From: Ehretia macrophylla
Lineage: Eukaryota > Streptophyta > Magnoliopsida > Boraginales > Ehretiaceae
DNA: 64,000 nt
Direction of reading: 5' to 3'
Assembly: GCA_037974665.1 (NCBI GenBank)
Contig: CM075778.1
Location: 21,952,001 to 22,016,000 of the forward strand
Shown: piece by piece, positions 2,691-52,649 of the stretch
Layout: each line of letters starts with the position of its first letter
How positions within the stretch are numbered: position 1 is the first letter of the stretch
The notes under the pieces: model-generated
Seen by the model: only the letters and a program-made list of their open reading frames with translations
Told to the model about the DNA's origin: nothing
The model's database searches: none
Translations under genes and position numbers: made by a program

Positions 2691-3958
2691 GTGAGGGTTG
2701 CATCGTTATTTGCGCATTTGAAATTATTGTATCTAAACTTTAATTTTTGTGATTTAGCCGTAGGTTGTTATTTTATCCATTTTGTTGCTTAAAGAATGTT
2801 CCTTGATGATGGTAGAACATGTATTTGTAGCTTTTTAGCATTTTCTACAGTTAAATATAGCAATTGCAATTTAAAATGCGAATGGAATAGTAAAATATGA
2901 ATAGTAAACCCCTGTTTCGTAAAAGTTGCTCCGTTTTGCGTTATGTTGATGTGAAAATATGTTAGATATGTTAGAATGCTTAAATGCATGATTTGTTTGG
3001 GTTGTGTAATGGAAAATCGGGGAAAATGGCTCGGTACATATTGGGGTCGTTCCGGTCGAGTTTGAAAATTTCTCATTTTGCGTGAAGGCATTGTCGAGGT
3101 ATGTCATGGAAGCACTTTTGGTGCAGTTGTGACATCTGTTGGGTGATCGGTTGAGGTAGCTGTAGTTCAAACGAGCAAAGGGAGAAATCGGGGCTTTGCG
3201 GGAATTCTAGGGTAAAGTGGGGTTTCTTGGTCTTTAGACATGCCTTATGGTGTCCTAGGAGGAGTAGTGAAGTCGGTTTCCAAAACTCGTAGCTCGTTTA
3301 GAAGTAGTAGCATTTTGAAAGTTGGGGTCGTTGTGTGTTTTGTTGGGTTTTAACATGTTTTGGCCTTTAGAATGTTATTGTTGCTTGTTGTTGCTTATTG
3401 TGATTATTATAGTTGATTGTGGTTGAAATGTATATCAACTGTTGCTACTGTGTGCGAGAGTAACCTACTTTGTTATTCTCCTACGTGTGGCTCTATCGCT
3501 CAATTGTTGCATTGTATATTGTATTGCATTCATAGAGTCAAGGGCGGTGTGATGGGCCTCTCTGGGTAGCCTCGGGTTGCCAGGGTTGGTTGTTCTAGTT
3601 CCGTGTCCTATGCCCTTTCTTGCTTGGGTTGCCGCCCAGGGAGATTTGGGTCGTAGAATTGATTGGATACTTCCGGGGTATTCCAAACCGAGGTTATAAG
3701 GTGGTTGGGCCGGCGCGTCGTCATCGGATTCGTGAATTGAAGTTGCTTGTGGAAAGTGAATTGTATCATTTAATTGAATGATTATAGCCTTAATGCTTGT
3801 CTTGATTTATTGTTGGCTTAGCTTGTATCTCTATATGTTAATTGACTGATCTACTTGACTATTTGCATTGCATTCTCCTCTCACCTCTGTCCTTGAGACC
3901 AATTAACCCTCGCTGAGCAATAGTTTTTGCTAATCCCTTTCTATACTATATTTTACAG
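2691..3958 (+). other. Intron-like span inside LTR A1-5'
   Basis: GTGAGG donor after AAG and TTTTACAG acceptor, with a pyrimidine-rich stretch before the AG; 1268 bp. It holds the CTACTTT-loop hairpin (3456-3480), a possible long-range stem (3558-3566 with 3635-3643) and a second hairpin before the acceptor (3914-3933). Splicing is inferred, not shown. Confidence 0.5.
3456..3480 (+). other. CTACTTT-loop hairpin, LTR A1-5'
   Basis: GAGAGTAAC, loop CTACTTT, GTTATTCTC: nine pairs including one G-U on the sense strand. The same loop with different stem bases recurs in the other gypsy LTRs of the window. Confidence 0.6.
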
Positions 3959-3960
3959 GA

Positions 3961-4026
3961 GTAGTTGAAGCTGATCCTTTTGAGGTGGTTGAGGAGGAGG
4001 AGGAGCAAGTGGATGTGTTTCCTTGA
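3961..4026 (+). CDS. Acidic micro-ORF after LTR splice acceptor, A1-5'
   Basis: Directly after the TTTTACAG/GA acceptor-like site, a 21-residue frame reads VVEADPFEVV, five Glu, then QVDVFP and TGA. The frame has no ATG of its own; upstream it stays open only back to 3904 without a start codon, and joining it to the leader exon puts a TAA immediately before it. It matches in phase and acidic character the frames in families B, E and H. Whether it is translated, and from what start, is unknown. Confidence 0.35.
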   Translation, partial: VVEADPFEVVEEEEEQVDVFP

Positions 4027-4488: not shown

Positions 4489-4500
4489 TGGTATTAGAGC
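4489..4500 (+). other. Primer-binding site of A1
   Basis: TGGTATTAGAGC, one base from the TGGTATCAGAGC complement of plant initiator tRNA-Met, eight bases past the 5' LTR end. Confidence 0.85.
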
Positions 4501-9415: not shown

Positions 9416-11718
9416 TGTAATACCCGAGCCCAGAACGTGAAATTTTCTGTTTATTTTTCTGAAAATTATATTTTTCTTAAATTCTTTGATATTTAATTGT
9501 TATTCGTCTATCGTCGCAAATTGCATTGCATTTCGAGAGCGTTAATTAGGAAATGATTTCTAGTCCTCAGCAAATAGTAAAAACTAGTATTTAGTGTTTT
9601 AATTTTAGTGTTTTAGTTGTTGTTGACTAGAATTATAATTGTATTAGTTGTTTTAGCCTCAAAATGGATGAAATAAGCTTAGTTGACCAACTTAAGTGAG
9701 CATTGACCAAGACCTTGACTTTGACCTTTGTTGTCATCTTTTAAATAGACATAATACACACAAAAACAACTAGAAAAGCTAGAAAAAAGAGAGGGATGCC
9801 GAAACCATAGGAGAAAAGAAAAAAAAAAGATTTTCAACTTCAAATCTTCAAATCTTCGCGAGGGCTTGCACGGGGTTGTTTTCGAGGCTTCCAACGTGGT
9901 TTTCCTAGCATCTAATAGCGTCTAAGGTGAGGGTTGCATCGTTATTTGGGCATTTGAAATTATTGTATCTAAACTTTAATTTTTGTGATTTAGCCGTAGG
10001 TTGTTATTTTATCCGTTTTGTTGCTTAAAGAATGTTCCTTGATGATGGTAGAACATGTATTTTTAGCTTTTTAGCATTTTCTACGGTTAAATATAGCAAT
10101 TGCAATTTAAAATGTGAATGAAATAGTAAAATATGAATAGTAAACCCCTGTTTCGTAAAAGTTGCTCCGTTTTGCGTTATGTTGATGTGAAAATATGTTA
10201 GATATGTTAGAATGCTTAAATGCATAATTTGTTTGGGTTGTGTAATGAAAAACCAAGGAAAAATGGCTTAGTACATGTTGGGGTCGTTCCGGTCGAGTTT
10301 GGCAATTCTTCGTTTTGCGTGAAGGCATTGTCGAGGTATGTCTTGGAAGCACTTTTGGTGCAGTTGTGACATTGGTTGGGTGATCGATTGAGGTAGCTAT
10401 AGTTCAAATGAGCAAAGGGGAAAATCGGGGCTTTGCGAGAATTCTAGGGTAAAGTAGGGTTTCGTGGTCTTTAGATGTGCCTTATGGTGTCCTAGGAGGA
10501 GTGGTGAAGTCAGTTTCCAAAACTCGTAGCTCGTTTGGAAGTAATAGCATTTTGAAAGTTGGGGTCGTTGTGTGTTTTGTTGGGTTTTAGCATGTTTTGG
10601 CTTTTAGAATGTTATTGTTGCTTGTTGTTGCTTGTTGTGATTATTATAGTTGATTGTGGTTGAAATGTATATCAACTGTTGCTATTGTGTGCGAGAGTAA
10701 CCTACTTTGTTATTCTCCCACGTGTGGCTCTATTACTCGATTGTTGCATTGTATATTGTATTGCATTCATAGAGTTAGGGGCGGTGTGATGGGCCTCTCT
10801 GGGTAGCCTCGGGTTGCCAGGGTTGGTTGCTCTAGCTCCGTGTCCTATTCCCTTTCTTGCTTAGGTTGCCGCCCAGGGAGATTTGGGTCGTAAAATTGAT
10901 TGGATACTTCCGGGGTATTCCAAACCAAGGTTATAAGGTGGTTGGGCCGGTGCGTCGTCATCGGATTCGTGAATTGAAGTTGCTTGTGAAAAGTGAATTG
11001 TATCCTTTAATTGAATGATTATAGCCTTAATGCTTGTCTTGATTTCTTGTTGGCTTAGCTTGTATCTCTATATGTTAATTGACTGATCTACTTGACTATT
11101 TGCATTGCATTCTCCTCTCACCTCTGTCCTTGAGACCAATTAACCCTCGCTGAGCAATAGTTTTTGCTCATCCCTTTCTATACTATATTTTACAGGAGTA
11201 GTTGAGGCTGATCCTTTTGAGGTGGTTGTAGTGGAGGAGGAGCAAGTGGAGGTGTTTCCTTGATAGCACTTTCTTTGCTTAGCTGGTGGTTGGTTGCCAG
11301 TCGTTTGTGCGGGCCATGCTTGATATGTATATTGCTTGGTTGTCGCTTCATTTTGAGGCTTGTAGCCTTGTATGTAGTTTCTATTTTGAGGCCTTTACGG
11401 TCTTATGTTGTAATAGGTGAAAGGTTGTAAAGTTGTAAAGATGTACTCTCGTGACTAGTGAAGAACTGCATGTTAATGGTTTTACTGCTTAGTGGCATAA
11501 GTACCTCTATAGTATGCATGTCATTTTGGGTTGCAAAGTTGGATAATGAGAAGATGTATGTTTCTAAAAGAAAGTTGACTTGTTTCAAATGATTATTGTG
11601 GTTTTCGTGATTATTATGTTGAATGTAGGGTTTTCGGATCGTCGACGGTACAGAGGAGACTCCGTCTGTGTGTCGGGTCAGGACTTGGCCTTTTGCGGGG
11701 TCGGGTCGTGGCGTGACA
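9416..11718 (+). repeat. 3' LTR of element A1
   Basis: 2303 bp, near-identical partner of the 5' LTR. TATA-like TTAAATA at 9741-9747, donor-like AAG/GTGAGG at 9926/9927, CTACTTT hairpin at 10693-10717, second hairpin TGAGCAA/TTGCTCA at 11151-11170, acceptor-like TTTTACAG at 11195. TSD TCGTA follows at 11719-11723. Confidence 0.93.
11198..11263 (+). CDS. Acidic micro-ORF after LTR splice acceptor, A1-3'
   Basis: Same length and phase as the A1-5' copy: VVEADPFEVV, then VVEEEQVEVFP and TGA. Two Glu codons have become Val (GTA, GTG) compared with the 5' copy. No start codon. Translation unproven. Confidence 0.3.
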   Translation, partial: VVEADPFEVVVVEEEQVEVFP

Positions 11719-20371: not shown

Positions 20372-20470
20372 TCAAGGATAAGACTCCGGAACATAAGACT
20401 CATCCACGTAAGGCACATTTTTCACATTTTTCTCTTCAGGAGGCACGTACCCGTAGTCTTGCGAAAGAAC
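20372..20470 (-). CDS. Conserved LTR micro-ORF, B1
   Basis: A 32-residue frame after the acceptor: VLSQDYGYVPPEEKNV, then KNVPYVDESYVPESYP and TGA. It matches the B2 and B3 frames except for one in-frame nine-base duplication (AAA AAT GTG twice), which keeps the frame. An in-frame ATG (MLTG) lies four codons upstream if the acceptor is not used. Translation unproven, but the frame is kept although nearby LTR sequence has diverged. Confidence 0.45.
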   Translation of the reverse strand, partial: VLSQDYGYVPPEEKNVKNVPYVDESYVPESYP

Positions 20471-20472
20471 AC

Positions 20473-21611
20473 CTGTAAGCATACAATAATAGAGAGTGAG
20501 CTTATATAAAATAAGCCTAGTGATGATCCGATAGATCTCTAACAGTATTCACTATACTCCTTGAAAATAATCCTTTGAGCAAGTAAACACACAATAAGAT
20601 CAATAATACTAACATCACATAATCTATAATGACCATTCAATAAAGGATACGCTAGTTGGTGTAGCTCCAAACACCATCACGATCATAACAGCCTTCTTGT
20701 GACTCCCATAAACTCACGCACCTGAGGTACCCCAATAACCTCTCCCTCCATGACACCTCCGTCATGCGAGCTGGAGACAGTCTCGGTAGTCATGGCGTTA
20801 TCAACCCGACAGCCCGATGCTGCCTAAGAGGTGACACACACATACCAAAGACTCAGCAATAATAATAAACATCAATCATTCACAGGAGGACAGTCTAGCA
20901 GAACTGCCTATCTCCCGGCATCAATCATCAATCAATAATCATATTATCATCATAATAACATCAATAATCAATTTAACAACAAATAACTAAGTTAGATGAC
21001 AAAGTAGGCCATCAACCTGAACATGCATTGAACACACAATCAAACCCTAGTTTACCCATCATCAACTCACAATTCAATCACTCAAACCACACACAATCAA
21101 CTAAAGGCATAATTTAACATTTTAAAGAAAGACAACCTAAACTTCAAATATTCATATCTTACATTCTACTAATCCAAACAACTCCAAATCAGTTTCTATC
21201 ACTCACCCATTCAATCAACTACATTAGCCCCCTCGGAAACCAACCAAAACACATCCAAATCATGCCCAATAACCCTAAAACCCTAGTGTGTCATGGCTGA
21301 AATTTTTGGATTTTAGCACCGACCTCACAATCGAAAATTCGGCATTACAACGGCGCTACCACGTAATTATCAAACTTTTAGAAATCGACGACAATCAATT
21401 TCAACCAATACAACTCAAGATAATCAACTTTAAATACCCGAAAATAAATAATTATGCTACAACGGTTCAAATCTCGCAAGAATACATATAAATGATCCCT
21501 AGCATGCATGGAGCAATAATCTAACTTCAAATTAACATTCTAACGGTTCAATAATTATTTATACGCATAAACACAAAATATGAGTTTTGAGATCTAGAAT
21601 TTTTCTCTCAC
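20473..21611 (-). other. Intron-like span inside LTR B1
   Basis: Minus strand: donor CATCTAAG/GTGAGAG (21612/21611) and acceptor GCTTACAG/G (20473/20472); 1139 bp. A CTACTTT-loop hairpin lies at 20991-21016. Confidence 0.5.
20991..21016 (-). other. CTACTTT-loop hairpin, LTR B1
   Basis: Plus strand GTTAGATGAC, AAAGTAG, GCCATCAAC. On the sense (minus) strand the stem GATGGC/GTCATC pairs with one G-U. Confidence 0.5.
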
Positions 21612-25227: not shown

Positions 25228-27423
25228 TGTCATGCCCCAACTCGACCCTATTTATGATCAGTCAGGACGCGACAGAATTTCAAAATATAACGTTTGTAAT
25301 ATGGATGACAGAGCTCTAAACCAACTCTTAAAAATACCTCACAACCAACCACAACTTCAACAATATACAACACATTCAACCACTTCATTAACCATCCAAA
25401 CAACATCCTGTCAACAAGACATATGCCTCTGTCTCTACAACATACGTCAAGCTATACTATACATATGCAAGATAGATAATAAAGGTAGTCTAGCAACCTA
25501 ATCATAATCCAAAAGAAAGCCTACTAAACTAACATTATACAACCTAATGTTTCATTATTTAAGACAACATAAAGAGCACTCCAGCAAAGACATCAAGGAC
25601 AAGATTCTTGCACATTGGACTCATCCACAAATAGTTCATTCTCAGCCTCCTAAGGAATGTACCCAAGATCTGGCTCAGTTACACTTGAAAGGTCAGCAAA
25701 GAAGGTGAGCTTATATATAACAAAGCTCAGCGAGGGTTCAATATGATGTTTTGGAAATACTTTCTTTACCACTTGGGAAAACACCCTAGGAACAATAACA
25801 CACAATAATCATCAACAACAATTCAACTAGACAACATTAGTAACCATACAATTGAGAAATAATATACTAGTTGATGTAGCTCCATACGTCATCACGAACT
25901 CAACCAACTTCTTACGCCCTTTGATACATTCTGGAAGTACCTTATTCTAGACCCACACTCCATGATCATTCCCCGACCACACGAGATAGGGGATAACACA
26001 CGACAGTTGTGCCGTTTTCAACCCGGCAAGCCCGATACTGCTCGAGAGGTGACACATAATATCATGACTCACAACAATTAACACTGAACACTTAATATTC
26101 TGAGATGACAACAAAGTAGGTTGTCTTCCAGTACAACAACATTCAACAATCATTTAACAACACTTCAATCAACACAACAATAATTAAACAACTAAGACAC
26201 CCAAGTTAGATGACAAAGTAGGCCATCCAACTCAACACACTTTCCAACATACATTCAAACCCGAGCCTACTCAACATCAACCCATGTATCAACCACACAA
26301 ACAACCCCAAACAATTAAAGACAACACATAGCCATTTCAAAGAAAGACTACACAAACTTCTAAACTTCATAACTTACAACCTATCAATCAAACAACCACC
26401 GAACCTTCTCCTACCACCTAACCATTAAAGCAACTACATTAACCCCCTCGGAAACAAACCAAAAGCCACCTAAAACAAGCCCAACAAGTCTAGTTTGGCA
26501 ATGGACTCAAGGCTGAATTTTTTGACTTCTACATTGGCATTCAAATTGAAAATTTGGCATTACAACATTGCTACACAATAAATAACAAGTCTATAGAAGC
26601 AACTACAACTCAATTTCATCAACTACAACTGCAATTATTCAAGAAATAAGCCAAATTATCAATTAAATGCCCGAAAAATAAAAATACATGTTGCTACCGT
26701 TTAAAATGGCTATAATTACACTAAGTTGGTCCTTATCATCTATCCAGCAATAATTTAAAAACAATTTAACTAAACAACAACTATAAATGCATCAACAAAA
26801 AATTGACATAAACTTTAAAAAAATGATCTAGTTTTTCCCTCACATTTGATCCAAAGAAATGATAGAAATAGGTAGAACAAGTGCCCAACAAGCAAAACCT
26901 AGCCCGAAATGAAAAGATTTGGCCTAGAAATAACTTTAACTTTGAAAATTTTCTTGAAAACCGAAGCAAAAATGGCTTCCTTCTTCCTCCCAAGGTGCAT
27001 GGATATGTGTGTGTATTTTTATGGTGTTTTGCAACTTATTTTATGTATTGTGTAAGTATAATAGCCTATATAATGCTAAGTCGACAAAATAAAGTAAAGT
27101 CAAAGTTGTCAACTTATTTGTTTTTGGTTGTTTTTAGCCTACAATGCATATATATACTAAATCTAACTTATATACTATATTAAGTAGACTAAAATTAGTA
27201 AACAACAAAATATATATGCATACATATACATACAACCAAGGTATAAAACTCAATTTCGCGAAAGAAGATGAAAAGTCACATTATTTGTTTTGCAAATATG
27301 TTTTAAATGTACAACCAATATATAATCACTTAATATCACATATAAATTCATATATATCAATTATAATAACATTTAAACAGATAAAACATGTAATTGCAAA
27401 TTAGGTAAATTTGTGGTCTCACA
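25228..27423 (-). repeat. 3' LTR of E1
   Basis: 2196 bp. Holds two loop hairpins (26107-26125 and 26205-26231). The donor has changed from AAG/GTGAGG to AAT/GTGAGG (26844/26843), and the acceptor CAGG to CAAG, relative to the other E LTR. The micro-ORF copy (about 25593-25682) has an internal TAG. Confidence 0.85.
26205..26231 (-). other. CTACTTT-loop hairpin, LTR E1-3'
   Basis: Plus strand GTTAGATGAC, AAAGTAG, GCCATCCAAC. A second hairpin with stem GACAAC/GTTGTC and the same loop lies at 26107-26125. Confidence 0.5.
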
Positions 27424-30041: not shown

Positions 30042-31040
30042 TGTCACGCCCCGACCCGACCCCGCAAAAGGCCAAGCCCGGACCCGACACACGGACGGAG
30101 TCTTCTCTGTACCGCGGACGATCCGAAAACCCTAAAATCAATATAATACTTGCGAAAGCCATAAAATAATCAAAACAAGCCGACTTTCTTTAAAACATAC
30201 ATTTCTTATTAACCAACTTTGCAACCCAAAAATGATATGCATACTACACAAGTATTTATGCCACTAATCAATTCCATTAGCATGCATTTCCTTACTAGTC
30301 ACAAGGGTATAAGTTTACAACTTTACATTTTTTTCAACTTATACAACATAAGACCATAGAGGCCTCAAACTAGAAAATACATACAAGGCTACAAGCCTCA
30401 AAATTAAGCGACATCCAAGCAATATACATAACAAGCAAGGCTCGCACCAAATCTGGTAACCAACCACTAGCAAAGCAGAGAAGTGCTATCACGGAAACAC
30501 CTCCACCTGCTCCTCCTCATCCTCTTCTATTACCTCGATAGGTTCTGCTTCAACTACTCTTGTAAAAAAATATAGTATAGAGAGGAATGAGCAAAAACTA
30601 TTGCTCAGCGAGGGCAAATGGTCTCAAGGACGGAGATGAGAGGAGTATGCAATGCAATTAGCCAAGCAATGCATACAAATATCATACAGAGATATAATAA
30701 AGCCATCAATAAAGTAAGGCAAGTATTTAAAGCTGTAAACACTCATTCAAAGGATACGATACTTTGTTCACGAGCAACTTTCAAACACGAATTCGATGAC
30801 GACGCGCCGGCCCAAACCACCTTATAACACCAGTTTGGAATACCCCGGAAGTATCCATCAACCTACGACCCAAAACTCCCTGGGAGGCAACCCCAGCGAG
30901 AAGAGGGAATAGCAGCGGAGCTAGAACAACCAACACTGGCAACCCGAGGCTACCCAGAGAGGCCCATCACTCACGCGCGAGACACTATGCAATGCAAGAC
31001 TCGATACAAGGCGATAAACAAGCGATAAAGCCACACGTGG

Positions 31041-31065: not shown

Positions 31066-33697
31066 GCACGCAATAGCAACAATTGATAAGCATTTCAATC
31101 CAAATCAATTCAAACAAGTATTTCAAGCAACCCTAAGTATTCTATAGGCATAAAATAAAGAAAACAAGCAAAAACACAAATCGGCCCCAACTATCAAAAC
31201 ACTACCATTTCCAAACGAGCCACGAGTTTTGGAAACCGACTTCGCCAATCCTCCTAGGTCACCACAAGGCACGTCTAAGGACCCCGAAACCCTACTTAAC
31301 CCTAGAATTCACGCAAAGTCCCGTTTTCCCCCTTTGCTCATTTGAACTACAACTATAATAACCAAACACCCAACCAACACCATAATCACACCAAAAGTGC
31401 TTCCATGGCCTCCCGAAACAATGCCAACACGCAAAACGAGAAAACGCTAAAGTCGACCTAAACGACCCCGACTTTCAACAAGGCTTAATTCCCGTTTTTT
31501 CCATTGCACAACCCAAACAAACCATGCATTTAGGCATTCTAACACACCTAGCACAATTCTACATCAACGGACAGCATAACGGAACAACTTCATCGCTCCA
31601 AGGGTTTACTATTCACAAAACACTATTCAACAACTAGTTTAAACTACAATCTCAACATTTAACCGCAGAAAATGTTAAAAAGCTATAAATACACATTCTA
31701 CAATTGCCAAGGAACATTCTAGAAGCATCAAAACGATTTAAACAACAATCTACGGATAAAATCTAAAAATCATAAAGTTGATACACTAAACATTTAAATG
31801 CGCAAATAACATGATTCTCTCACCTTAGGCACTCCTAGTCGCTAGGAAAACAACGCTAGTCACCTCGGAAACCACCCCGCACGAGCTCACGCGAAGATTG
31901 ATCGATTGGAAGGTTAAAAGGTTTTTTTTCCCTTGGAGCTCACGGCCTGCTCTTCTCTGTTCAGCTGCTATATTTTTTTTATTTTGTTAAGTTAAAAGCT
32001 TATTTAAGTGCTAAATTGGTCAAATGGTCAAAGGCCTAGGTCAAACGACTTAAAACTTGGTCAAAATGGCCTTATTTTGTGCATTTTAAGCTAAAATAAC
32101 TATCACCAATTTAATTTTCAGCTAGCAACAATTAAAATATAAAATTTAAGTCATCTAAATACTAGTTTCACTATTTGCTGAGGACTAGAAACCGTTCTCT
32201 AGCTATCGCTCCCTAAGTGCAATGCACGTTGCGACAGTAAAGAAGTAACAATTAATTCTAAAAGAATTTAAGGAAATATAATTTCCAAAATAATAAACAA
32301 GAAATTTCACATTCCGGGTGTGAAACCCCACTTTCTTGCTTATCTCGTTTTACGTGCTATACATCGTTTTGCGTGCATATGATCTGTTTATGTGCTATAG
32401 GACCTAGAAAGTTATAATTTTGATGTCAATGCTCCTAATACGTGCTAAATGTGCATTCATGAAATTTTCATAAAAAACGGAGTCAGAAATTTTATCGTCG
32501 ATTTTTAGTGAATAGTATTTTTGAAACACGTCCGCTAAAATTTTGAAACTGGTCTTTTTAACCCTTCTAGACCTAGTCCACGGACTTTAATAGACATGTG
32601 TTTGATGAAAACGGTTTTAAAATCGACTTAAGAATTTATTAGGGTTTTTATACCGACTTTTGCGAAAATCGAGTTTTAAGCCGACTCGGGTGAAATTGTT
32701 TGATTGTAAAACTTCTTGTCACCTAAAAATAATCCACTTGAGATATCGTGGGGGTTGCATAATTATTTTGAGCCTTGGTGAGCAATAAAATGCAATTAAA
32801 GTCATTAAAACACTAAAATACCAATTTAAAATTAACTTTGACTTTAATTAATTCTTGACCTTATAAGCTATTGTCATCAACACACACTCAACACAACACA
32901 AAACACCACCACAAGCACACACAAGGCCGAGAGAAAGAAGAGAGAAAAAGAAAGAGATTTTCAAAGCTTTTCAATCCAATTTTTCAAAGAAAAACCTAGT
33001 TTTTGTCCGTGAAACTTCGCACCGACTTGGATTCTTCTTGTTTGGCACGCATAGCACGCATTACTAGGCTTATATCACATCAAAGGTGAGAGAAAAATTC
33101 TAGATCTCAAAATGTCATTTTTATGTTTTTGCTCATAAATGAAAATTTAACCGCTCGAATTGAAATCTGATGATAGATTATTGCTCCTTGCATGATAGGG
33201 ATCGTTATATACTAATACTACAAATTTCTGTCAGATGTAGCATAATTTTTATTTTTCGGGTATTTAATTTTGATTAAAATGTTCAAAGTTGAATTAAATG
33301 AGTTGTGTTGATCGAAATCGATTGCCGTCGATTTCTAAATACTTGATAATTACGTGTTAGCGCTGTTGTAATGCCGAATTTTCGATTACATTGTTCGTGT
33401 GAAAATTCAGAAAATCCAGCCATGATATCCTAGGGTTTTAGGGTTATCGGGCATGATTTGGAGGTGTTATGGTGGATTTTCGAGAGGGCTAATGTAGTAG
33501 GTTGAATGGGTGAGTGATAGGAACTGATTTGGCAATGTTTGGATTAGTAGATTGTAAGTTATGAATTTTAGAAGTTTAGGTTGTCATTCTTTAATTTCTT
33601 GAACGATGCCTTTAGATGGTTAGGTAGTGTTCGAGTGATGAATGGTGAGTTGTTGATGAGTAATTTAGGGTTTATTTGTGTATATAATGCATGTCCG

Positions 33698-33724
33698 GTT
33701 AGATGGCCTACTTTGTCATCTAAC
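33698..33724 (+). other. CTACTTT-loop hairpin, LTR B2
   Basis: GTTAGATGGC, loop CTACTTT, GTCATCTAAC: ten continuous pairs with one G-U. The strongest copy in the window. Confidence 0.65.
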
Positions 33725-33830
33725 TTCGTTATTTGTTGTTTAATTAAATATTGATGTTATATTGATGTTATTGATTGATTGATTATTATTGAGTTCGGGA
33801 ATCGGGCACTTTCGTTGCTGATCTCCCAAT

Positions 33831-33875
33831 TGATTGATTGATGATTGATTGATGATTGATTGATGATTGATGATT
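33831..33875 (+). repeat. GATT-type simple repeat
   Basis: Repeats of TGATTGATTGA and TGATTGATGAT inside LTR B2, about 45 bases. Confidence 0.8.
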
Positions 33876-34259
33876 ATGGAGTCTTGGTATGTGTGTGCCA
33901 CCTCTCGGGCAGCGTTGGGCTGTCGGGTTGATAACGGCATGACTGCCATAGGCTACCCCTAGCTCGCATGACGGAGGTGTCATGGAAGGAGGGGCTAGTG
34001 AGGTACCTCGGGTGCGTGAGTAATGGGGAGTTATAAGAAGAACGGTTGAGATCGTGATGGCGTTTGGAGCTACACCAAATAGAGTATCCTTTATTGATTG
34101 GTTATATAGTTATGTGATGATAGTATTATTTGTGTTATTGTGTGTTTACTGACTCAAAGGATTATTCCAAGGAGTTTAGTAGACCTTGCTCGAGATCTAT
34201 CGGATCCTCACTGGGCTTATGTATATAAGCTCACTCTCTATTATTGCATGCTTACAGGT

Positions 34260-34349
34260 GTTGCAGAGCCGGATTACGGGTACGTGCCTCCTGAGGAGGA
34301 AAATGTGCCTTACGTGGACGAGTCATATGTTCCTGAGTCTTATCCATGA
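34260..34349 (+). CDS. Conserved LTR micro-ORF, B2
   Basis: A 29-residue frame directly after the acceptor: VAEPDYGYVPPEEEN, then VPYVDESYVPESYP and TGA. Against the B3 copy (52120-52209) there are 14 base differences; 13 are at third codon positions, the protein differing only by Ala/Thr and two Glu/Asp exchanges. Sequence just after the stop differs far more and with indels. Such a pattern is expected for translated sequence under selection. An in-frame ATG four codons upstream (MLTG) could start it if the intron is retained; a frame from the leader exon stays open for only about ten codons and has no ATG. Function unknown; acidic, Tyr- and Pro-rich. Confidence 0.5.
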   Translation, partial: VAEPDYGYVPPEEENVPYVDESYVPESYP

Positions 34350-34784
34350 TTATATGTTGTTTAATGTCATGTATATTAGCTTAATAGACTTTTATATGCT
34401 TTATAGTTCTTATTGTAGTAGATGTTGAAAGATAATGATCCAAATGATGTTAACTTAGTGGCTTTCTTTGTCTATGGTTAAGTTGTAGATGTGTCTCAAC
34501 TTATTTTTGAAATGTATGATAAGGTTGAGGTATTGTATGTTATGTTGGAACGGAGGCAGATAACGAAGACTGATTATTGTATATTACGGTTATGTGGTGT
34601 TTCGTTATGCTGTTGAGGAGTTGTTGTTTGTATGGTTATAGAATTGGATGTTTAATGTTATTAATGAGGTTGGTTTAGAACCTCGAAAATCTATTACTGT
34701 CGTTATGCTGTCGAAATTCCGTTGCGTCCTGACTGATTATAGGTGGGGTCGAGTTGGGGCGTGACACCGGGCTCGGGTATTACA

Positions 34785-34799
34785 CCCTCTCCCCCTTAA
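34785..34799 (-). other. Polypurine tract of A2
   Basis: Minus strand TTAAGGGGGAGAGGG directly before the 3' LTR start at 34784; its first bases overlap the pol stop. Confidence 0.85.
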
Positions 34800-37700
34800 A
34801 ACAATTGCGCCCACGCAATTCCTACCTGGTCAACAAACAACTCCGGATACTGATCTCGAACCTGGTCCTCTCTTTCCCAAGTTGCTTCCTCAAATCCATG
34901 ATGATTCCACAGAACCTTTACTAACGGAATACTCTTCCTGCGAAGCTCCTGAACTTTCCGATCCACAATTCGAATCGGTTTCTCTTCATAAGACAACTTC
35001 TCTTCAATCTGCAAAGGCTCTGGTTCAAGTACATGTGAAGGGTCTGGATGGTACTTCTTCAACATAGACACGTGGAACACATCGTGCAGTCTCGATAAGC
35101 TCGGAGGCAAAGCTAATCGATAAGCCAAAGGACCTACCTTTTCGGTGATCTCATACGGACCCACATACCTGGGACTAAGCTTCCCGCTCTTACCGTGCCG
35201 AATCAATCCCTTCCGTGGAGAAATCTTAAGAAACACCCAATCTCCCAAATCAAACTCAAGATCCCGACGGTGCTTATCCGCATAACTCTTCTGACGACTC
35301 TGAGCTGTAAGCATATGCTGGCGAATAATGTGAACATTATCTACCATCTTAATCATCTCAGGTAACACAGTCAGATCAACTATTCTCATCTCTCCAACCT
35401 CTTCCCAATATAATGGGGATCTGCATTTCCGACCATACAACGCCTCGTAGGGAGCCATACCTATAGTAGATTGATAACTATTGTTGTAGGCGAACTCCGC
35501 TAAAGACAAAAACTTCTCCCAATTCTTCCCAAAGTCTAGCACACATGCCCGTAGCATGTCTTCCAAGATCCTGATGGTTCTCTCAAACTGGCCATCAGTT
35601 TGTGGATAATATGCAGTGCTGAAGCTCAATTTAGTTCCCATGGCCTCTTGCAACTTCTGCCAAAAACGAGATCTGAATCTGGGATCTCTATCTGACACTA
35701 TACTCTGTGGCACACCATGCAATCTCACAATATTAGCAACATAAAGCTCAGCTAGCTTATCAAGGCTATCCTGTTTGTTCACGGGAATAAAATGTGTAAC
35801 TTTAGTCAAGCGGTCCACAACAACCCAAACAGAATCACATCCTCTCGGAGATCTAGGAAGATCGGTCACAAGGTCCATTGTTATATGTACCCACTTCTAT
35901 TACGGAATCGACAACGGCTATAGAAGTCTGGCTGGCCTCTGATGCTCAACTTTAACCCTCTGACAAGTCAAACATCTGGATACATACCCAGCAATCTCCC
36001 TCTTCATATTACTCCACCAGAAGTGTTGTTTCAAATCTCTATACATTTTAGTACTGCCCGGGTGAATCGTATACCTCGAATTGTGTGCCTCGGACAGAAT
36101 CTCATTCTTCAAAGTCGAATCATCAGGAACACATACTCTATCCCTGAATCTGAAGATGCCATCTGCATGTAATTTAAACTCCGACTCTCCCCCTTTTGAT
36201 TTTTCTTAGATTTTCAAGATGTGAGGATCAGTCTTCTGAGCCTCTCTGATCTGTGCTAGCAACCCTGACTGAATCTGTAAACTAGCAAATCGAATCCCTA
36301 CCTCAGTAGCTTCTGGCTTCCATGAACAAATTTCTTCCAAAGTCTCCCAATCTTTGATAGTTAAGCTTGCAACAGTAGCCTTTCGGCTCAAAGCATCAGC
36401 AACAACATTCGCCTTACCTGGCACGTAGTTAATAGAACAGTTGTAACCACCCAATAGTTTTAGTCATCTCCGCTGCCTCATATTCAGATCCTTCTGTGAA
36501 AACAAATACTTGAGACTCTTGTGGTCAGTAAAAATTTTAAATCTGCAACTCCACAAGTAATTACGCCACTTTTTCAAAGCAAACACAACTGCAGCCAACT
36601 CAAGATCATGTGTAGGGTAATTGACTTCATATGGTTTCAACTTCCTAGAATCATAGGCAATCACCTTACCATTCTGCATTAAAACACAACCCAAACCTTC
36701 CTTAGATGCATCACTGTAGACAACGAAGTTCTCTGTTCCCTCAGGTAAAGCTAATATAAGAGCTGTAGTTAATCTCTTTTTCAATTCTTGGAAACTGGAT
36801 TCACACTTGGCATCCCAGTTGTAAGTAACTTTCTTCCGAGTCAACTGGCTTAAAGGCCCAGCAATTTTGTAAAAGTCTTTAACAAATCTCCGGTAGTAAC
36901 CTGCCAATCCAAGAAAACTCTGAATCTCTGACACCGTCTCAGGTCTCTTCCAAGATGAAACAACTTCAATCTTAGCTGGGTCCACTGAAATTCCTCAATC
37001 TGAAATGATATGGCCTAGAAAAGATATCTGATTCAACCAGAACTCGCACTTGCTGAATTTAGCAAAAAGCTTGTTTTCCTGCAAAGTCTGTAGCACAATC
37101 CTCAAGTGTTGCTCATGTTCAGCCTCATTCTTCGAATACACTAAAATGTCGTCAATAAAGATTATGACAAACTGATCAAGGTAAGGTCGGAAAACTCTCT
37201 GCATCAAGTCCATGAATGTGGCTGGTGCATTCGTCAATCCAAACGGCAACACAACAAATTCATAGTGGCTATATCTAGTCCTGAAAGCTGTCTTTGGTAT
37301 ATCGTCACTCCGAATCCTAAGTTGATAGTAACCCTGCCTCAAGTCAAATTTGGAATAAACACTCGCACCCTGCAATTGGTCAAACAATTCTTCAATCAAC
37401 GGCAAGGGGTATTTATTCTTAATCGTGACTTGATTAAGTCCCCTGTAATCAATACATAACCGTAGCGTGCCGTCTTTCTTTCTCACAAACAACATAGGTG
37501 CGCCCCACGGCGAAGAACTAGGTTGTATAAACCCTTTCTCAAGCAAGTTCTGAAGCTGAATTTTTAACTCCTGAAGTTCAGCCGATGCCATTCTATAAGG
37601 ACTCCTAGAAATTGGCGCGGTGCCTGGCACAAGATCAATCACGAACTCAATCTCCCTATCCGGTGGTAAACCCGGTAATTCCTCGGGAAATACACCAGGG

Positions 37701-39422
37701 AAGTCTCTAACAATCGGAACCTCATTCAAACTCAACTTATCAGTAGGCTGATTGATCAAATAAGCTAAGTAAGCTTCACAACCCTTATTCAACAACTTAG
37801 AAGTCTTGATTGCTGATAAAAGAGGAATTTGGGCAGCCCTGCAGTTCCCAACAATCTCCAGTACCGGTAGGTCAGGAACCTGAAGATAAACAATCTTTGT
37901 TCTACAATCCAATTGAGCATAGTACTTCCCCAACCAGTCCATTCCCAAAATGATTTCAAAGTCACGGAATGGCAATATAATTAAATCAGCAGGAAATTTA
38001 CGGTTCTCTATGCATATATCACAAGATTTGCAAATAGACTCAGTAACAAATTTTGCACCCAAAGGCGTACTAACTTCAACTTCATGCGGCAATTTATCAA
38101 TGCAAACATTCACAGATCGTGCACATGCAGGAGTTATAAACGAATGTGTAGCTCCGGGATCAATCAAAACTTTAACTGGCTGAGTATTGAGAAGAAAGGT
38201 ACCTTCCACAATAGCTGTAGTATCGGGTAGCTCCTCTGCATCTAGTGCAAATACCCTAGCCTGAACCCTCTGTGCTGGACGTGCACCTGCAGCCCTATTC
38301 TGAACACCCTGGCCTCCAGTACGGCCCTTAACATTGTTATACTTAGGGCAATCTCTCACCCTATGGTTATCACTACCACAACCCATACATTTACCACTCT
38401 TCCTCCAACAGTTAGCCTCAATATGCCCCGATTGATTACAATAATTACATTGCTGATTTTGCCTAACTGCAGTGTTTCCCGTAGGTGCTGGGGCTCTGGC
38501 AGTAGTAGGAGCTGTACCTCCCTGCTGGGGTCTAGTCACAGCTGGCCTAGTCTGAATCTGCTGCTGTGGCTGATACGAACGTTGCTGAGGAACCTATGCA
38601 GAAGTCTGATACTGCCTCGGCTGACTCTGGCTGACTCTGGCTGCTCTGGCCCAAATACTGCCTCTTACTCGGCTAACTGCTCTCAGCTAACATCTCAACC
38701 TTCCGTTTCTCAAACTTCGAGGCTGCCTGGAATGCCTCGGGAAAAGTAGTGTAGGTCTGCCCAGTCAAATGCAACTGTATGTCCATTCTCAGCCCACGAA
38801 CAAACCTATGAATTATCCTCCTAGCCGGCCGTACCAACTCGGGTATATACCTCGACAGGCTAACAAACCTAGCCTCGTACTGTGCAACAGTCATATTTCC
38901 CTGCTTCAGGGCCACAAACTCATCCTCCCGCCTTTCCATAGCCATCTCGGGAATATACTTATCCCGAAACTCACTCACAAAATCATCCCATAAATGTGGA
39001 ACATACTCACAATCCCACCTCAATCTGACAGTATTCCACCACTGCTCTGCATCGCCCTCAAACAGGAATGATGCATAATCTATTCTTGCCTCATTAGTGT
39101 ACCTCAAAGCGGTGAAAATTTTCTCGACACGGTTAATCCATCTCTCGGCTGCCTCATCATCCGGCTCTCCGAAGAACTTTCCCGGCTCGTGCCTCAGAAA
39201 TTTCTCTAACTGATTATTCTCAACTCTATACCCATGTCCACCAGGATTAACTTGATTTCCCTGGGGATTATTCCTGTCCTGTCTCTGCTCATGCAGCACC
39301 TGTGTAATCCGGTCTACTGCAGTAGTCATAGTAGCCATAAACTGCTCAGGCAACGGCTGCTGACCCTGTTCTGCTACCTCTTCATCTGATCCTATACCTT
39401 GAGTACCACGACGTGGCGGCAT
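34796..39422 (-). pseudogene. gag-pol polyprotein of A2
   Basis: ATG at 39422 opens MPPRRGTQGIG. Gag runs to a TAG at about 38672 (A1 has CAG at that codon); just after it a ten-base tandem duplication (CAGAGTCAGC twice) shifts the frame. From 38539 downward one frame carries two CCHC knuckles ([28 protein letters not shown]), protease [13 protein letters not shown] with [10 protein letters not shown], RNase H with [10 protein letters not shown] and [10 protein letters not shown], integrase with [16 protein letters not shown] and SDRDPRF, and a chromodomain-type end HHGFEEATWEREDQV, to a stop at 34796. The frame is cut by stops near 36994, 36463, 36205 and 35905, most explained by C-to-T or G-to-A changes. 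Protease has Asp-Pro-Gly-Ala, not Asp-Ser-Gly-Ala. Confidence 0.94.
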
Positions 39423-39716
39423 AGTAGCAATTTCACAATAGCTGGCAACATTTAAAAGCAGTTTATAGACAGAAATATAGCACATAAGATTAGATAACAC
39501 TCAAGTCAATAACAATCAACCATTCTAACACGCAATTCACATAACACAAGTTTGACATGCCAAACTAATTTACTTTAAACACATAAGCACTACAAGTTCA
39601 CAAAGTCATGCTATAACATTTTCTTTCCACTTAACAATTATACAATAACATTCTAGCATTTTGGACCTTTACCCCACAGACCGAGAAACATATCCCGGCT
39701 CATGCAAGACTATCAT

Positions 39717-40155: not shown

Positions 40156-40224
40156 TCACGGAAACACCTCCACCTGCTCCTCCTCCTCCTCTTCTATTAC
40201 CTCGATAGGTTCTGCTTCAACTAC
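40156..40224 (-). CDS. Acidic micro-ORF after LTR acceptor, A2-5'
   Basis: 22 residues: VVEAEPIEVI, six Glu, QVEVFP, TGA. Same phase as the A1 copies; A1-5' against A2-5' differ in several codons but keep the acidic stretch and the end VFP. No start codon of its own. The 3' LTR of A2 has a matching copy at 30489-30557. Confidence 0.35.
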   Translation of the reverse strand, partial: VVEAEPIEVIEEEEEEQVEVFP

Positions 40225-40226
40225 TC

Positions 40227-41489
40227 CTGTAAAAAAATATAGTATAGAGAGGAATGAGCAAAAACTATTGCTCAGCGAGGGCAAATGGTCTCAAGGACGG
40301 AGATGAGAGGAGTATGCAATGCAATTAGCCAAGCAATGCATACAAATATCATACAGAGATATAATAAAGCCATCAATAAAGTAAGGCAAGTATTTAAAGC
40401 TGTAAACACTCATTCAAAGGATACGATACTATGTTCACGAGCAACTTTCAAACACGAATTCGATGACGACGCGCCGGCCTAAACCACCTTATAATACCAG
40501 TTTGGAATACCCCGGAAGTATCCATCAACCTACGACCCAAAACTCCCTGGGAGGCAACCCAAGCGAGAAGAAGGAATAGCAGCGGAGCTAGAGCAACCAA
40601 CACTGGCAACCCGAGGCTACCCAGAGAGGCTCATCACTCACGCGCGAGACACTATGCAATGCAAGACTCGATACAAGGCGATAAACAAGCGATAAAGCCA
40701 CACGTGGGAGAATAACAAAGTAGGTTACTCTCGCACGCAATAGCAACAATTGATAAGCATTTCAATCCAAATCAATTCAAACAAGTATTTCAAGCAACCC
40801 TAAGCATTCTGTAGGCATAAAATCAAGAAAACAAGCAAAAACACAAATCGGCCCCAACTATCAAAACACTACCATTTTCAAACGAGCCACGAGTTCTGGA
40901 AACCGACTTCGCCAATCTTCCTAGGTCACCATAAGGCACGTCTAAGGACCCCGAAACCCTACTTAACCCTAGAATTCACGCAAAGTCCCGTTTTTTCCCT
41001 TTGCTCGTTTGAACTACAACTATAACAAGTAAACACCCAACCAACGCCATAATCGCACCAAAAGTGCTTCCATGGCCTCTTGAAACAATGTCAACACGCA
41101 AAACGAGAAAATGCTAAAGTCGACCTAAACGACCCCGACTTTCAACAAGGCTTAATTCCCGTTTTTCCATTACACAACCCAAACAAACCATGCATTTAGG
41201 CATTCTAACACACCTAGCACAATTCTACATCAACGGACAGCATAATGGAACAACTTCATCGTTCCAAGGGTTTACTATTCACAAAATACTATTCAACAAC
41301 TAGTTTAAACTACAATCTCAACATTTAACCGCAGAAAATGTTAAAAAGCTATAAATACACGTTCTACAATTGCCAAGGAACATTCTAGAAGCATCAAAAC
41401 GATTTAAACAACAATCTACGGATAAAATCTAAAAATCATAAAGTTGATACACTAAACATTTAAATGCGCAAATAACATGATTCCCTCAC
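40227..41489 (-). other. Intron-like span inside LTR A2-5'
   Basis: 1263 bp between CCTAAG/GTGAGG and TTTTTTACAG/GAG on the minus strand. Same internal order as A1: loop hairpin, CTCTCTGGG module, TGAGCAA/TTGCTCA hairpin, acceptor. Confidence 0.5.
40708..40732 (-). other. CTACTTT-loop hairpin, LTR A2-5'
   Basis: Identical to the A2 3' LTR copy: GAGAATAAC, AAAGTAG, GTTACTCTC on the plus strand. Confidence 0.55.
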
Positions 41490-44132: not shown

Positions 44133-44569
44133 CTTAATGTCACGCCCCAACTCGACCCCAGTTATGATCAGTTAGGACGTGGCGGAATTTCGGCAATATC
44201 ATGTCTGTAATATGGAAAACAAAGCTTTAAGCCAGCTCTTGAAAACACCTCACAACCAACCACAACTTCAACAACAACTTCAACAACATACAACACATTC
44301 AACCACTTCATTAACCATCCAAACAACATCCCGTCAACAAGACATATGCCACTGTCTCAACAACATACATCAAGCTATACTATACATATGTAAGATAGAT
44401 AATAAAGCTAGTCTAGCAACCTAATCATAATCCCAAAGAAAAACTACTAAACTAACATTATACAATCCACTATCTTTAAGTTATGTTTACAATACAAACT
44501 TTAAAGCTTAAATACAATACAACATATTTCATAATTTAAGACAACATAAAGAGCACTCCAGCAAAGACA

Positions 44570-44659
44570 TCAAGGACAAGACTCTTGCACATTGGACTCA
44601 TCAACATATGGCTCATTCTCAACCTCGTGTGGAACGTACCCAAGATCTTGCTCAGTTAT
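44570..44659 (-). CDS. Conserved LTR micro-ORF, family E
   Basis: 29 residues after a TTTCAG/G acceptor: ITEQDLGYVPHEVEN, then EPYVDESNVQESCP and TGA. Exactly the length of the B2 and B3 frames, no indel, 19 of 29 residues identical to B2 (shared core GYVP, PYVDES). No ATG upstream in frame nearby. The conservation between two diverged LTR families supports a coding role. Confidence 0.45.
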   Translation of the reverse strand: MTEQDLGYVPHEVENEPYVDESNVQESCP

Positions 44660-45181
44660 ACCTGAAAGGTCAGCAAAAAGGCTGAGCTTATATATAACAA
44701 AGCTTTACAAGGGTTCAATAGGATGTTTTGGAAACACTTTCTTTACCACTTGGGAAAACACCCTATGAACAATAACACATAATAATCATCAACAACAATT
44801 CAACTAGACAACATTAGTAACCATACAATTGAGAAAGGATACAGTAGTTGATGTAGATCCATACGACATCACGAACTCAACCAACTTCTTACGCCCTTTG
44901 AGACATTCTAGAAGTACCTCATTCTAGACCCACACTCCATGATCATTCTCCGACCACACGAGATAGGGGATAGTACATGATAGTTGTGTAGTTTTCAACC
45001 CGGTAAGCCCGATATCGCCCGAGAGGTGACACACACTATAATGACTCACAACAATTAACACTGAACACTTAATATTCTGAGAGGACAACAAAGTAGGTTG
45101 TCTTCCAGTACAATAACATTCAACAATCATTTAACAACACTTCAATCAACACGACAATAATTAAACAACTAAGACACCCAA

Positions 45182-45208
45182 GTTAGATGACAAAGTAGGC
45201 CACCCAAC
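45182..45208 (-). other. CTACTTT-loop hairpin, shared E LTR
   Basis: Plus strand GTTAGATGAC, AAAGTAG, GCCACCCAAC. A second hairpin, GAGGACAAC, AAAGTAG, GTTGTCTTC, lies at 45081-45105. Confidence 0.5.
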
Positions 45209-45436
45209 TCAACACACTTTTCAACATACATTTAAACCCGAGCCTTCTCAACAACAACCCATGTATCATCCACACAAACAACCCCAAACAATTAAAGACA
45301 ACACTTATCCATTTCAAAGAAAGACTACACAAACTTCTAAACTTCATAACTTACAACCTATCAATCAAACAACCCCCGAACCTTCTCCTACCACCTAACC
45401 ACTAAAGCAACTACATTAACCCCCTCAGAAACCAAC

Positions 45437-50902: not shown

Positions 50903-52117
50903 GTGAGAGAAAAGTTCTAGATCTCAAAATGTCATTTTTATGTTTTTGTATATAATTGAATTTTGAACCGTTATAATGTTGAATTGATGTTATATTATTG
51001 CTCAGTGCATGCTAAGGATTGTTTATATGTATTTATATAAGATTTGAACCGTTGTAGCATGAATTTTTATTTTTTGGGTATTAAAATTGAGTTGTTGGCT
51101 ATTTGTTGAATAATTGGAGTTGTGGTGGTTGGAATCGATTGCTATTAGCTTGTAAAAGTTTGTTAAATACGTGGTAGAAATGTTGTAATGCCGAAATTTT
51201 GATTGTGATGTTGGTGTGAAAGTTCAAAAATTTCAGCTTATGTGCATTGAGGTTTTATGGTTGTTGGGCTTGATTTGGATAGATTATGGTTGGTTTCCGA
51301 GGGGACTAATGTTGTTGATTGAGTGGGTGAGTGATAGAAACTGGTTTGGAGGTTATTGGATTAGTAAAATGTAAGTTATGACTTTTAGAAGTTTGGGTTG
51401 TCTTTCTTTAAAATGTTGAATTATGCCTTTGGATGTTTGGGTAGTGTTTAAGTGATTGAATTGTGAGTTGTTGATGGTTAGACTAGGGTTTGGTTGTGTG
51501 TTTAATGCATGTTAAGTTGGGTGGCCTACTTTGTCATATAACTTAGTTGTTTGTTGTTTATTTGATTAGTTGTTGTTATGTTGTTGAAATGATGATTATT
51601 GATTGATTAATGTTGAACCGGGAGATAGGCAACCTACTTTGTTGTCCTCCCGTGATATTTGATTATGATAAGCCGGGAGATAGTCAACGTGAAAGGTTAT
51701 CCTCCTGAGATTTGAATGATTATTGTTATTGTCATGAGTATTGGTATGTGTGTGCCACCTCTCGGGCAGCGTCGGGCTGTCGGGTTGAAAATGGCGTGAC
51801 TATCATAGGCTACCCCCAGCTCGCATGACGGAGGTGTTATGGAGGGAGGGGCTAGATAGGTACCTCGGGTGCGTGAGTAATGGAGAGTTATAAGAAGAAC
51901 GGTTGAGATCATGATGGCGTTTGAAGCTACACCAACTAGAGTATCCTTTATTGATTGGTCATTATAATTAATGTGCTTATATTGTTATTATGATTATTGT
52001 GTGTTTACTGCTTAAAGGATGATTTTCAAGGAGTATAGTAAATACTGTTAGAGATCTATCGAATCCTCACTGGGCTTGTTTTATATAAGCTCACTCTCAA
52101 TTATTGCATGCATACAG
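50903..52117 (+). other. Intron-like span inside LTR B3
   Basis: Donor CATCAAAG/GTGAGAG (50902/50903), acceptor GCATACAG/G (52117/52118); 1215 bp. Two CTACTTT-loop hairpins inside. Confidence 0.5.
51516..51650 (+). other. Two CTACTTT-loop hairpins, LTR B3
   Basis: First: GTTGGGTGGC, CTACTTT, GTCATATAAC (51516-51542), nine of ten positions paired with G-U allowed. Second: GGAGATAGGCAAC, CTACTTT, GTTGTCCTCC (51621-51650), inner and outer stems with an ATA bulge. Confidence 0.55.
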
Positions 52118-52119
52118 GT

Positions 52120-52209
52120 GTTACCGATCCAGATTACGGGTACGTGCCTCCAGAAGAAGATAATGTGCCATATGTGGACGAGTCCTATGTGCCAGAGTCT
52201 TATCCTTGA
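52120..52209 (+). CDS. Conserved LTR micro-ORF, B3
   Basis: 29 residues: VTDPDYGYVPPEEDN, then VPYVDESYVPESYP and TGA. Differs from B2 almost only at third codon positions (see B2 entry). An in-frame ATG (MHTG) lies four codons upstream across the acceptor. Confidence 0.5.
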   Translation, partial: VTDPDYGYVPPEEDNVPYVDESYVPESYP

Positions 52210-52649
52210 TATCTGATGTACTTTTTTGTTATCTTGTATATTAAAACTAGTTGGTTTGTATTTACTTTGAAGTTTATGATGTACAAGATGTTGTAAAGAT
52301 AATGGATTAAATGTTGCTAGTTTAGTGGTCTTGTTTTGAAATATGATTAGACTACTAGATTGGTTATAGTCTATTTTGGGAAATATATGTTATATAGTAA
52401 ATGTATGATGTTGGAACGGAGGCATACAACCTATGGATGCAATGGTAAAAGAATGTTTATTGTATATTGTGGTTGTGTTGTTTAATTGTTGAATTGTTAT
52501 GGAGTTGGTTGTATGAGTTTCGAAGAGGTTGGTTTAGAGCCTCGGTGTCCTAATTACTGTCGTTATACTGCTGAAATTTCGTTACGTCCTGACTGATTGT
52601 AGAAGGGGTTGAGTTGGGACGTTACATTGGTGTAATATCCCACATCGGG

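Follow-up and report, generated by a model that had tools for sequence, protein, structure and literature searches.

A constrained short reading frame and a putative terminal coding exon in the long terminal repeats of Ehretia macrophylla chromoviruses

Long terminal repeats (LTRs) of retrotransposons are mostly treated as non-coding control regions. What, then, is a short reading frame doing in an LTR when its copies differ almost only at third codon positions? The question is raised by a 64,000-nucleotide stretch of the Ehretia macrophylla genome (assembly GCA_037974665.1, contig CM075778.1, positions 21,952,001 to 22,016,000; hereafter the window), which consists largely of nested LTR retrotransposons, Ty3/gypsy chromovirus elements. 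The frame lies in the family B LTRs B1, B2 and B3 and in C1 and C2, which are likely the two LTRs of one element; the LTRs of elements E and F (E5 and F5 at the 5' end, E3 and F3 at the 3' end) form a second LTR group beside B/C, and a further lineage is called G. All copies compared come from the window. We find that the stretch was very probably selected as protein; it is probably no free-standing unit, and its boundaries give it the look of a terminal coding exon in phase 1.

Codon-level constraint on the LTR frame

Translating the 29-codon frame present in both B2 (34260-34349) and B3 (52120-52209) gave VAEPDYGYVPPEEENVPYVDESYVPESYP and VTDPDYGYVPPEEDNVPYVDESYVPESYP, each followed by a stop, in agreement with the original prediction, and our recount returned the same 14 base differences, distributed 1/0/13 over codon positions 1/2/3, with ten codons changed silently, two Glu/Asp replacements and one Ala/Thr replacement. 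CCT/CCA, TAC/TAT, GTT/GTG and TCA/TCC exemplify most of the third-position changes. With equal rates at the three positions, at least 13 third-position differences among 14 would be expected with P = 6e-6. When 87-base windows with at least 8 differences were compared along B2 and B3 (n = 2272), the best sat on the frame (start 34264, P 6e-7, uncorrected for the number of windows) and the best away from the frame reached P 7e-3. A coding-score scan of the same LTR pair gave the frame 9.3, where 60 column shuffles reached 7.1 at most, and no other sense segment exceeded the null maximum in the pairs scanned. Nine of the 14 differences are transversions, so methylation decay is no explanation for them.

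Within family B, the ratio of nonsynonymous to synonymous change (dN/dS, simple counting) was not near one, nor were the three codon positions equally affected, the two outcomes that would have spoken against protein-level selection: dN/dS was 0.17 for B1-B2, 0.13 for B1-B3 and 0.05 for B2-B3, and differences by codon position were 3/3/8 and 3/3/12 in the two pairs that involve B1. Of the three B pairs, one shows a strong third-position bias and two a moderate one. For C1-C2, dN/dS was 0.44, and for B against C it was 0.09-0.40 or saturated, dS being saturated in two of the six comparisons; second positions account for 7-8 of 22-31 differences when B2 and B3 are compared with C and for 8-11 of 29-34 with B1. 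Events counted on a tree, excluding the first codon and the stop, fell on positions 1/2/3 as 4/3/18 in B (P 9e-5), 9/13/31-33 in B and C together (P 5e-5 to 1.5e-4) and 2/2/10 in E/F (P 0.004). The copies of the frame, extended back to its putative splice junction and hereafter called the micro-exon, are as follows.

34258..34349, plus strand: micro-exon of B2, (x)GT GTT ... CCA TGA, 30 codons, phase 1, (G)VAEPDYGYVPPEEENVPYVDESYVPESYP and stop
52117..52209, plus strand: micro-exon frame of B3
20372..20473, minus strand: micro-exon frame of B1, 33 codons, with a 9-base in-frame insertion
44570..44662, minus strand: micro-exon frame of C2, GITEQDLGYVPHEVENEPYVDESNVQESCP and stop
25593..25685, minus strand: micro-exon frame of C1, decayed, with an internal stop and acceptor CAGG changed to CAAG
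3958..4026, plus strand: micro-exon frame of F5, GVVEADPFEVVEEEEEQVDVFP and stop
11195..11263, plus strand: micro-exon frame of F3, GVVEADPFEVVVVEEEQVEVFP and stop
40156..40227, minus strand: micro-exon frame of E5, GVVEAEPIEVIEEEEEEQVEVFP and stop
30489..30560, minus strand: micro-exon frame of E3, acceptor CAGG changed to CAAG

The frame was thus found in 5/5 B/C LTRs, counting C1 with its internal stop. At the corresponding place of the E/F LTRs, behind TTTACAG/GA (the slash marks the putative junction), all four copies encode (G)VVEADPFEVVEEEEEQVDVFP and stop or variants of it; these frames were reached through weak matches in the search that located the B/C copies, and they share phase and LTR place with the B/C frame. 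With the acceptor phase fixed, the acidic E/F frame was foretold. The isoelectric point is near 4 for all seven peptides computed. We do not claim sequence homology between the B and E peptides; their likeness (a G-V start, acidic character, a P-stop end) is short, and position together with phase is the better argument for their correspondence. Indels behind the acceptor are multiples of three (9 bases among B/C, 3 bases among E/F), and the flanks carry many others. Between F5 and E5 the frame differs by 2/0/9 (P 1.4e-3), apart from the in-frame indel of 3 bases. A scan of this pair in 66-base windows holding 8 or more differences (n = 2096) ranked first a window that starts at 3980 and has 9/10 differences at the frame's third position (P 3.6e-4); it overlaps the frame and extends slightly beyond its stop, and the exon's own window ranks fourth. 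In each of the four pairs scanned (B2-B3, B2-B1, B3-B1 and F5-E5), the most 3-periodic window of the LTR overlaps the frame.

The two LTRs of one element diverge after insertion, and here the pattern changes. Differences within elements were 4/4/5 for C1-C2, 0/2/3 for F5-F3 and 1/0/1 for E5-E3, so that third positions make up 9/20 within elements compared with 22/25 for B2-B3 and F5-E5 together (Fisher P 0.003). The contrast falls to 17/25 and P 0.14 if B1-B2 replaces B2-B3, and the within-element count is 4/7 if the C pair is left out. Differences that arose after insertion show no third-position bias: selection stopped at insertion. Between-element bias, recurrence in E/F and unbiased within-element differences together support selection as protein in the active ancestors, strongly in B2-B3 and moderately elsewhere. 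This part of the original prediction stands; its picture of an independent micro-ORF (open reading frame) is not supported, given an ATG confined to B and a boundary that resembles a splice site.

The splice-site-like boundary and RNA hairpins

In B2 the frame starts directly after CTCACTCTCTATTATTGCATGCTTACAG/GT. Corresponding acceptors read CTTACAG/GT or CATACAG/GT in B, CTTTCAG/GT in C2 and TTTACAG/GA in E5, F5 and F3, and it is their CAGG that has become CAAG in C1 and E3. The CTCAC of B2 and its acceptor resemble the plant branch-site and 3' splice-site consensus. An in-frame ATG stands 9 bases upstream of the frame in 3/3 B copies and in 0/6 copies of C, E and F. The lack of a conserved ATG and a start that resembles a 3' splice site point away from an independent micro-ORF and towards one exon within a longer message made by splicing. 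The parts predicted for B2 are listed here.

32896..33085, plus strand: putative non-coding leader exon, taken as the 190 bases before the donor
33086..34257, plus strand: putative LTR intron, 1172 bases, donor TCAAAG/GTGAGAG, acceptor CTTACAG
34212..34233, plus strand: branch-site hairpin, TGGGCTTAT pairing with ATAAGCTCA, 3' arm overlapping CTCAC, the putative branch site, 24 bases before the exon

The donor C(T/A)AAG/GTGAGRG occurs in seven of eight LTRs scored (B1, B2, B3, E5, E3, F5 and F3, not C1), 1.14-1.27 kb from the acceptor. On a scoring by donor frequencies with a threshold of our own, it is the only above-threshold donor that can be matched between B and E/F, and some single LTRs hold other donors of higher score elsewhere. 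Base composition changes across the putative junctions: the B2 leader, which has no ATG, contains 23.2% T against 37.3% in the intron, and across six LTRs measured T amounts to 37-39% in the intron, 22-27% in the leader and 18-32% in the exon, with the LTR tail T-rich again. Splicing itself would follow from these features as a prediction.

The branch-site hairpin lies 21-28 bases upstream of the exon and is closed by TGAG with CTCA; B2 and B3 have TGGG instead, and the closing stem is shorter in B1 and F5. It occurs also in B1, B3, C1, E5, E3, F5, F3 and G (in G within 62300-62340), with inner stems that differ by LTR lineage: CTTAT with ATAAG in B2 (CTTGT in B3), CTT with AAG in C1, CAA with TTG in E5, E3, F5 and F3, and TATAC with GTATA in G. 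In C2 the only stem is a weak one of different make-up. Five of ten copies (B2, E5, E3, F3 and G) beat shuffled sequences at 0.05 or less. The putative branch site falls within a hairpin arm in most copies, and because the 3' arm overlaps it the hairpin could slow splicing. G shares the layout of donor, hairpin and acceptor (CATTTCAG/GA) with B, E and F.

A second hairpin, with the loop CCTACTTTG, is found once or twice per LTR in B, C, E and F (two in B3, C1 and C2).

33697..33725 (33692-33732), plus strand: loop-CCTACTTTG hairpin of B2; the stems differ among copies and mostly pair
51510-51550, 51618-51658, 3449-3489 and 10686-10726, plus strand: further copies
20983-21023, 26095-26135, 26197-26237, 40699-40739, 45072-45112 and 45174-45214, minus strand: further copies

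The loop is invariant, 88% of cells are paired and 7/11 pairs are changed on both sides. Three statistics on these 11 related rows, the covariation score, the paired cells and the cells changed on both sides, were higher than in any of 500 shuffles and than in the slid controls. Two others were not: 76/500 shuffles reached the count of doubly changed pairs, and 500/500 reached the count of pair types. Rfam returned 0 matches at gathering scores. The hairpin could be an RNA signal of these elements.

A spliced terminal exon and its alternatives

We hypothesise that the frame is a terminal coding exon of chromovirus LTR retrotransposons, carried in the LTR, and that splicing would connect its 3' LTR copy with a coding exon further 5', in the element body. 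The product would be a subgenomic mRNA for a protein ending in a strongly acidic tail of 22-33 residues. By analogy with other elements the upstream partner may be a Gag-derived exon, and the protein a short Gag or an accessory protein. Splicing would have to be inefficient, partly through the hairpin that may hide the branch site, leaving enough unspliced genomic RNA with an intact LTR. Codon-level selection, the splice-site-like boundary, a phase and layout that both LTR groups have and a hairpin present in most copies can be read from the letters themselves; splicing, use of the 3' LTR, the partner exon, the effect of the hairpin and the function are what we infer from them. We regard the full mechanism, in which a spliced subgenomic mRNA has its terminal exon encoded by the LTR, as evenly poised between right and wrong. 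Its extension to a broad group of plant chromoviruses, in which a selected terminal coding exon and a hairpin throttling splicing at the branch site would act as a built-in switch, with genomic RNA on one side and the spliced message of the acidic-tailed protein on the other, is put forward tentatively, as the less probable claim.

Several results weigh against this mechanism. No 5' coding exon was found among the leader, the pol end and the gag donors examined. The leader before the shared donor lacks an AUG in 4/6 copies and has a stop just before the junction, in exon phase, in B1, E5, E3, F5 and F3, and was rejected as a coding partner. The strong donor at the C-terminus of pol (CAG/GTAGGA in E, CAG/GTAAGA in F) is in phase 0 where the micro-exon requires phase 1, and a join would run straight into a stop in E/F. 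A phase-1 donor does lie between the two zinc knuckles of gag at 38394 in E and 5808 in F (agagtg/GTAAAT and agagtg/GTAAGT), from which a short Gag with a micro-exon tail is possible; it is absent in C, and several further phase-1 donors in pol may be there by chance. The coding-score scan clears its control in B2-B3 and stays below it in B2-B1 (4.8, null 95% 5.2), B3-B1 (6.1, null 95% 6.5), F5-E5, F3-E3 and also C2-C1. The G LTR has the acceptor and lacks the acidic frame, only 10 codons following in phase 1. Copies of the branch-site hairpin in B3 and C1 are borderline (0.07), and those in B1, C2 and F5 are no better than shuffles. Finally, length-limited searches of a collection holding plant proteins returned no annotated relative among proteins of about 43-138 residues or of 110-350 residues, the one candidate in the latter not being scored at an E-value of 10 or better.

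Some of these points can be read more closely. In the B2-B1 and B3-B1 scans, the best sense segment is again the frame. For F5-E5 no sense segment of at least 4 was obtained, and an antisense one over the same place scored 6.4 (sense null maximum 6.2); the scan treats Glu/Asp as non-synonymous, and the support in E/F rests on the codon-position window analysis. As a positive control, pol segments reached up to 25.7 in the E-F bodies. A short ATG exon within the LTR (ATGG at 33506-33509 and GTGAGT from 33510 in B2, also in B1) was considered as a partner and rejected: the ATG is lost in B3, and the exon was not found in C, E or F. Of 8000 relatives scored for the integrase ORF of E, the best 120 were listed; most of these end soon after the chromodomain and a few have other or longer tails, none seen resembling the micro-exon. 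The named relatives of the integrase, like the LTR type, point to plant DNA.

Two alternatives retain the coding frame and dispense with a partner exon. The frame could be a free-standing small ORF with its own start (ATG at 34248 in B2), read without splicing from an RNA beginning near TATATAAG at 34222-34229, as the in-frame ATG of every B copy and the retention of TATATAAG in 5/5 B/C copies would suggest. We consider this unlikely: C1, C2, E5, E3, F5 and F3 have no in-frame upstream ATG, TATATAAG belongs to a hairpin that is made of other letters in other lineages, and an RNA start about 30 bases below it falls beyond the ATG. Alternatively, a leader-spliced message from the 5' LTR could use a non-AUG start to make a leader peptide that regulates Gag translation. 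The donor common to B, E and F pairs naturally with the micro-exon acceptor, and the 5' LTR copy of the exon sits upstream of gag, but the missing AUGs and the stops before the junction described above count here too, and no likely near-cognate start was seen within the E/F exon, which leaves this explanation with a similarly low probability.

The remaining alternatives question what was selected. The capture of a host gene's terminal exon would leave an intron's end, a short coding exon and a tail rich in T, a layout like this one, and the codon pattern could then be a remnant of former conservation; however, the third-position bias separates LTR copies in the window and so arose after any capture, and no annotated protein of the lengths searched shares the frame, making capture improbable. 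Constraint on nucleotides, as in an exonic splicing enhancer rich in purines or a DNA motif whose 3-periodic look is fortuitous, would suit the GAG/GAA-rich stretch of E/F and an LTR that contains other conserved RNA hairpins. It fits poorly with B2-B3 changes that are mostly third-position and in large part transversions, and with a frame that is the most periodic place in four pairs and keeps its indels in frame, and we rate it lower again. Least probable is a coincidence magnified by the choice of the best pair. The weakness of B1-B2 on its own, the loss of significance in the within/between contrast when that pair is used and a coding scan that clears its control in a single pair argue for chance, whereas the P of the B2-B3 window and the recurrence in E/F at a foreseen place and phase (F5-E5) argue against it.

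Host elements and known systems

The LTRs that carry the candidate exon, together with G and the coding region of element E, are listed below.

19958-22377, minus strand: LTR B1, family B, target duplication TTAAT
32319-34766, plus strand: solo LTR B2, family B, ends TGTGAAACCC...GGGGCGTGACA, 5-base target duplication CCGGG on both sides
50127-52626, plus strand: LTR B3, family B, target duplication not clear
about 42000-39737 (E5, 5') and about 32314-30042 (E3, 3'), minus strand: LTRs of element E
about 2178-4481 (F5, 5') and about 9416-11718 (F3, 3'), plus strand: LTRs of element F
60563-62950, plus strand: LTR lineage G, a partial relative of the E/F group
34796..39500, minus strand: ORFs of element E (gag, protease-reverse transcriptase, RNase H, integrase-chromodomain; Pfam)

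Family B is represented in the window by LTRs only, its body being absent. B2, inserted about 17 bases within the 3' LTR of element E, is a solo LTR because its target duplication is present and the body is missing; the same status, originally predicted for both LTRs, is less certain for B3, where no duplication was seen. The host elements of the E/F and C LTRs have the chromovirus order gag, protease-reverse transcriptase, RNase H, integrase and C-terminal chromodomain, the Pfam Chromo matches (E-value 0.0017, 18.6 bits in element E; 3.2e-5, 24.2 bits in C) both lying below the 25.1-bit cut-off and that of element E well below it. Between LTR and gag there may be a second leader intron in E (about 39737-39422, minus strand) and F (4482-4800, plus strand), with donor TGTGGG/GTAAAGG and a possible acceptor TTGCCAG or TTGCTAG ahead of the gag ATG. 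Direct copies about 90% identical at 12543-13210 and 22433-23099 are perhaps LTRs of another element that received the B1 insertion, and a primer-binding-like TGGTATCAGAGCC at 22429 (minus strand) adjoins the second of them. At 44136-48187 (minus strand), a copy of the 3' end of a body (about 47810-48187) precedes C2, as in a tandem LTR-body-LTR-body arrangement.

Sag of mouse mammary tumour virus (MMTV), an animal retrovirus, is likewise an LTR-encoded protein, and its ORF is long and contiguous. In plants, passages on CRM group A describe a chromovirus coding region that extends into the 3' LTR as a polyprotein run-on, with LTRs of 299-1225 bases and TGATG/CATCA-type ends (PMC3059260). Here, by contrast, the frame lies about 1.9 kb inside an LTR of about 2.4 kb, behind a splice-site-like sequence; the LTRs measure about 2.2-2.5 kb, with ends TGTGAAACCC or TGTAATACCC...GTGACA (end pairs TGTGAAACCC or TGTAATACCC with GGGGCGTGACA). 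Nor was a run-on found: pol of E stops ahead of the polypurine tract, the C1 frame enters the LTR for about 67 bases and then stops, and the chromodomain match is in its usual place in the elements tested, the CR motif itself not having been searched for. Retrosat2, RIRE3 and RIRE8 also have long LTRs and an extra ORF of unclear function; this ORF0, as the cited passages have it, precedes the gag-pol ORF and is found only in grasses, and RIRE8 and Retrosat2 have the closely similar LTR ends TGTCACACCC-GGGCGTGACA (PMC3485330). Element E has no long ORF in the three frames shown of the roughly 315 bases between LTR and gag ATG. PMC6317226 places Retrosat-2 under Tekay/Del; the resemblance of the window LTRs to Retrosat2/RIRE8 lies in their ends.

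Spliced subgenomic messages are reported, in the passages available, for Ogre, EVADE, BARE1, sunflower elements and Cer1 (PMC12786077, PMC10309623, PMC7730604, PMC3735527). In EVADE and BARE1, the spliced message encodes Gag alone and reaches a stop shortly beyond the junction; their introns are internal (104 bases in BARE1), and the passages concerned do not place terminal codons in the LTR (PMC12786077, PMC3735527). For Cer1 of C. elegans, also Ty3/gypsy, the protein CERV is described as the product of a five-exon spliced mRNA with shared gag-frame exons; it has 517 residues, its last exon lies behind TTTCAG, and it is needed for export of unspliced RNA (PMC10309623). A review of December 2025 states, in the section available, that plant LTR retrotransposons are generally without introns, with Ogre and EVADE as notable exceptions (PMC12786077). 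In the titles and abstract openings listed, a partial coverage that included few subscription papers, we saw no report that a plant LTR contains an intron or a coding exon. Tekay is absent from the expressed set in the portion of the sunflower study available (PMC7730604), so RNA evidence may be hard to get.

If the proposed mechanism is correct, at least two related LTR groups would encode an unrecognised spliced protein with a short acidic tail. A common kind of element would then have one more protein, which would suggest how the balance between genomic RNA and mRNA is kept; the exon might also, more speculatively, explain in part why such LTRs are so long.
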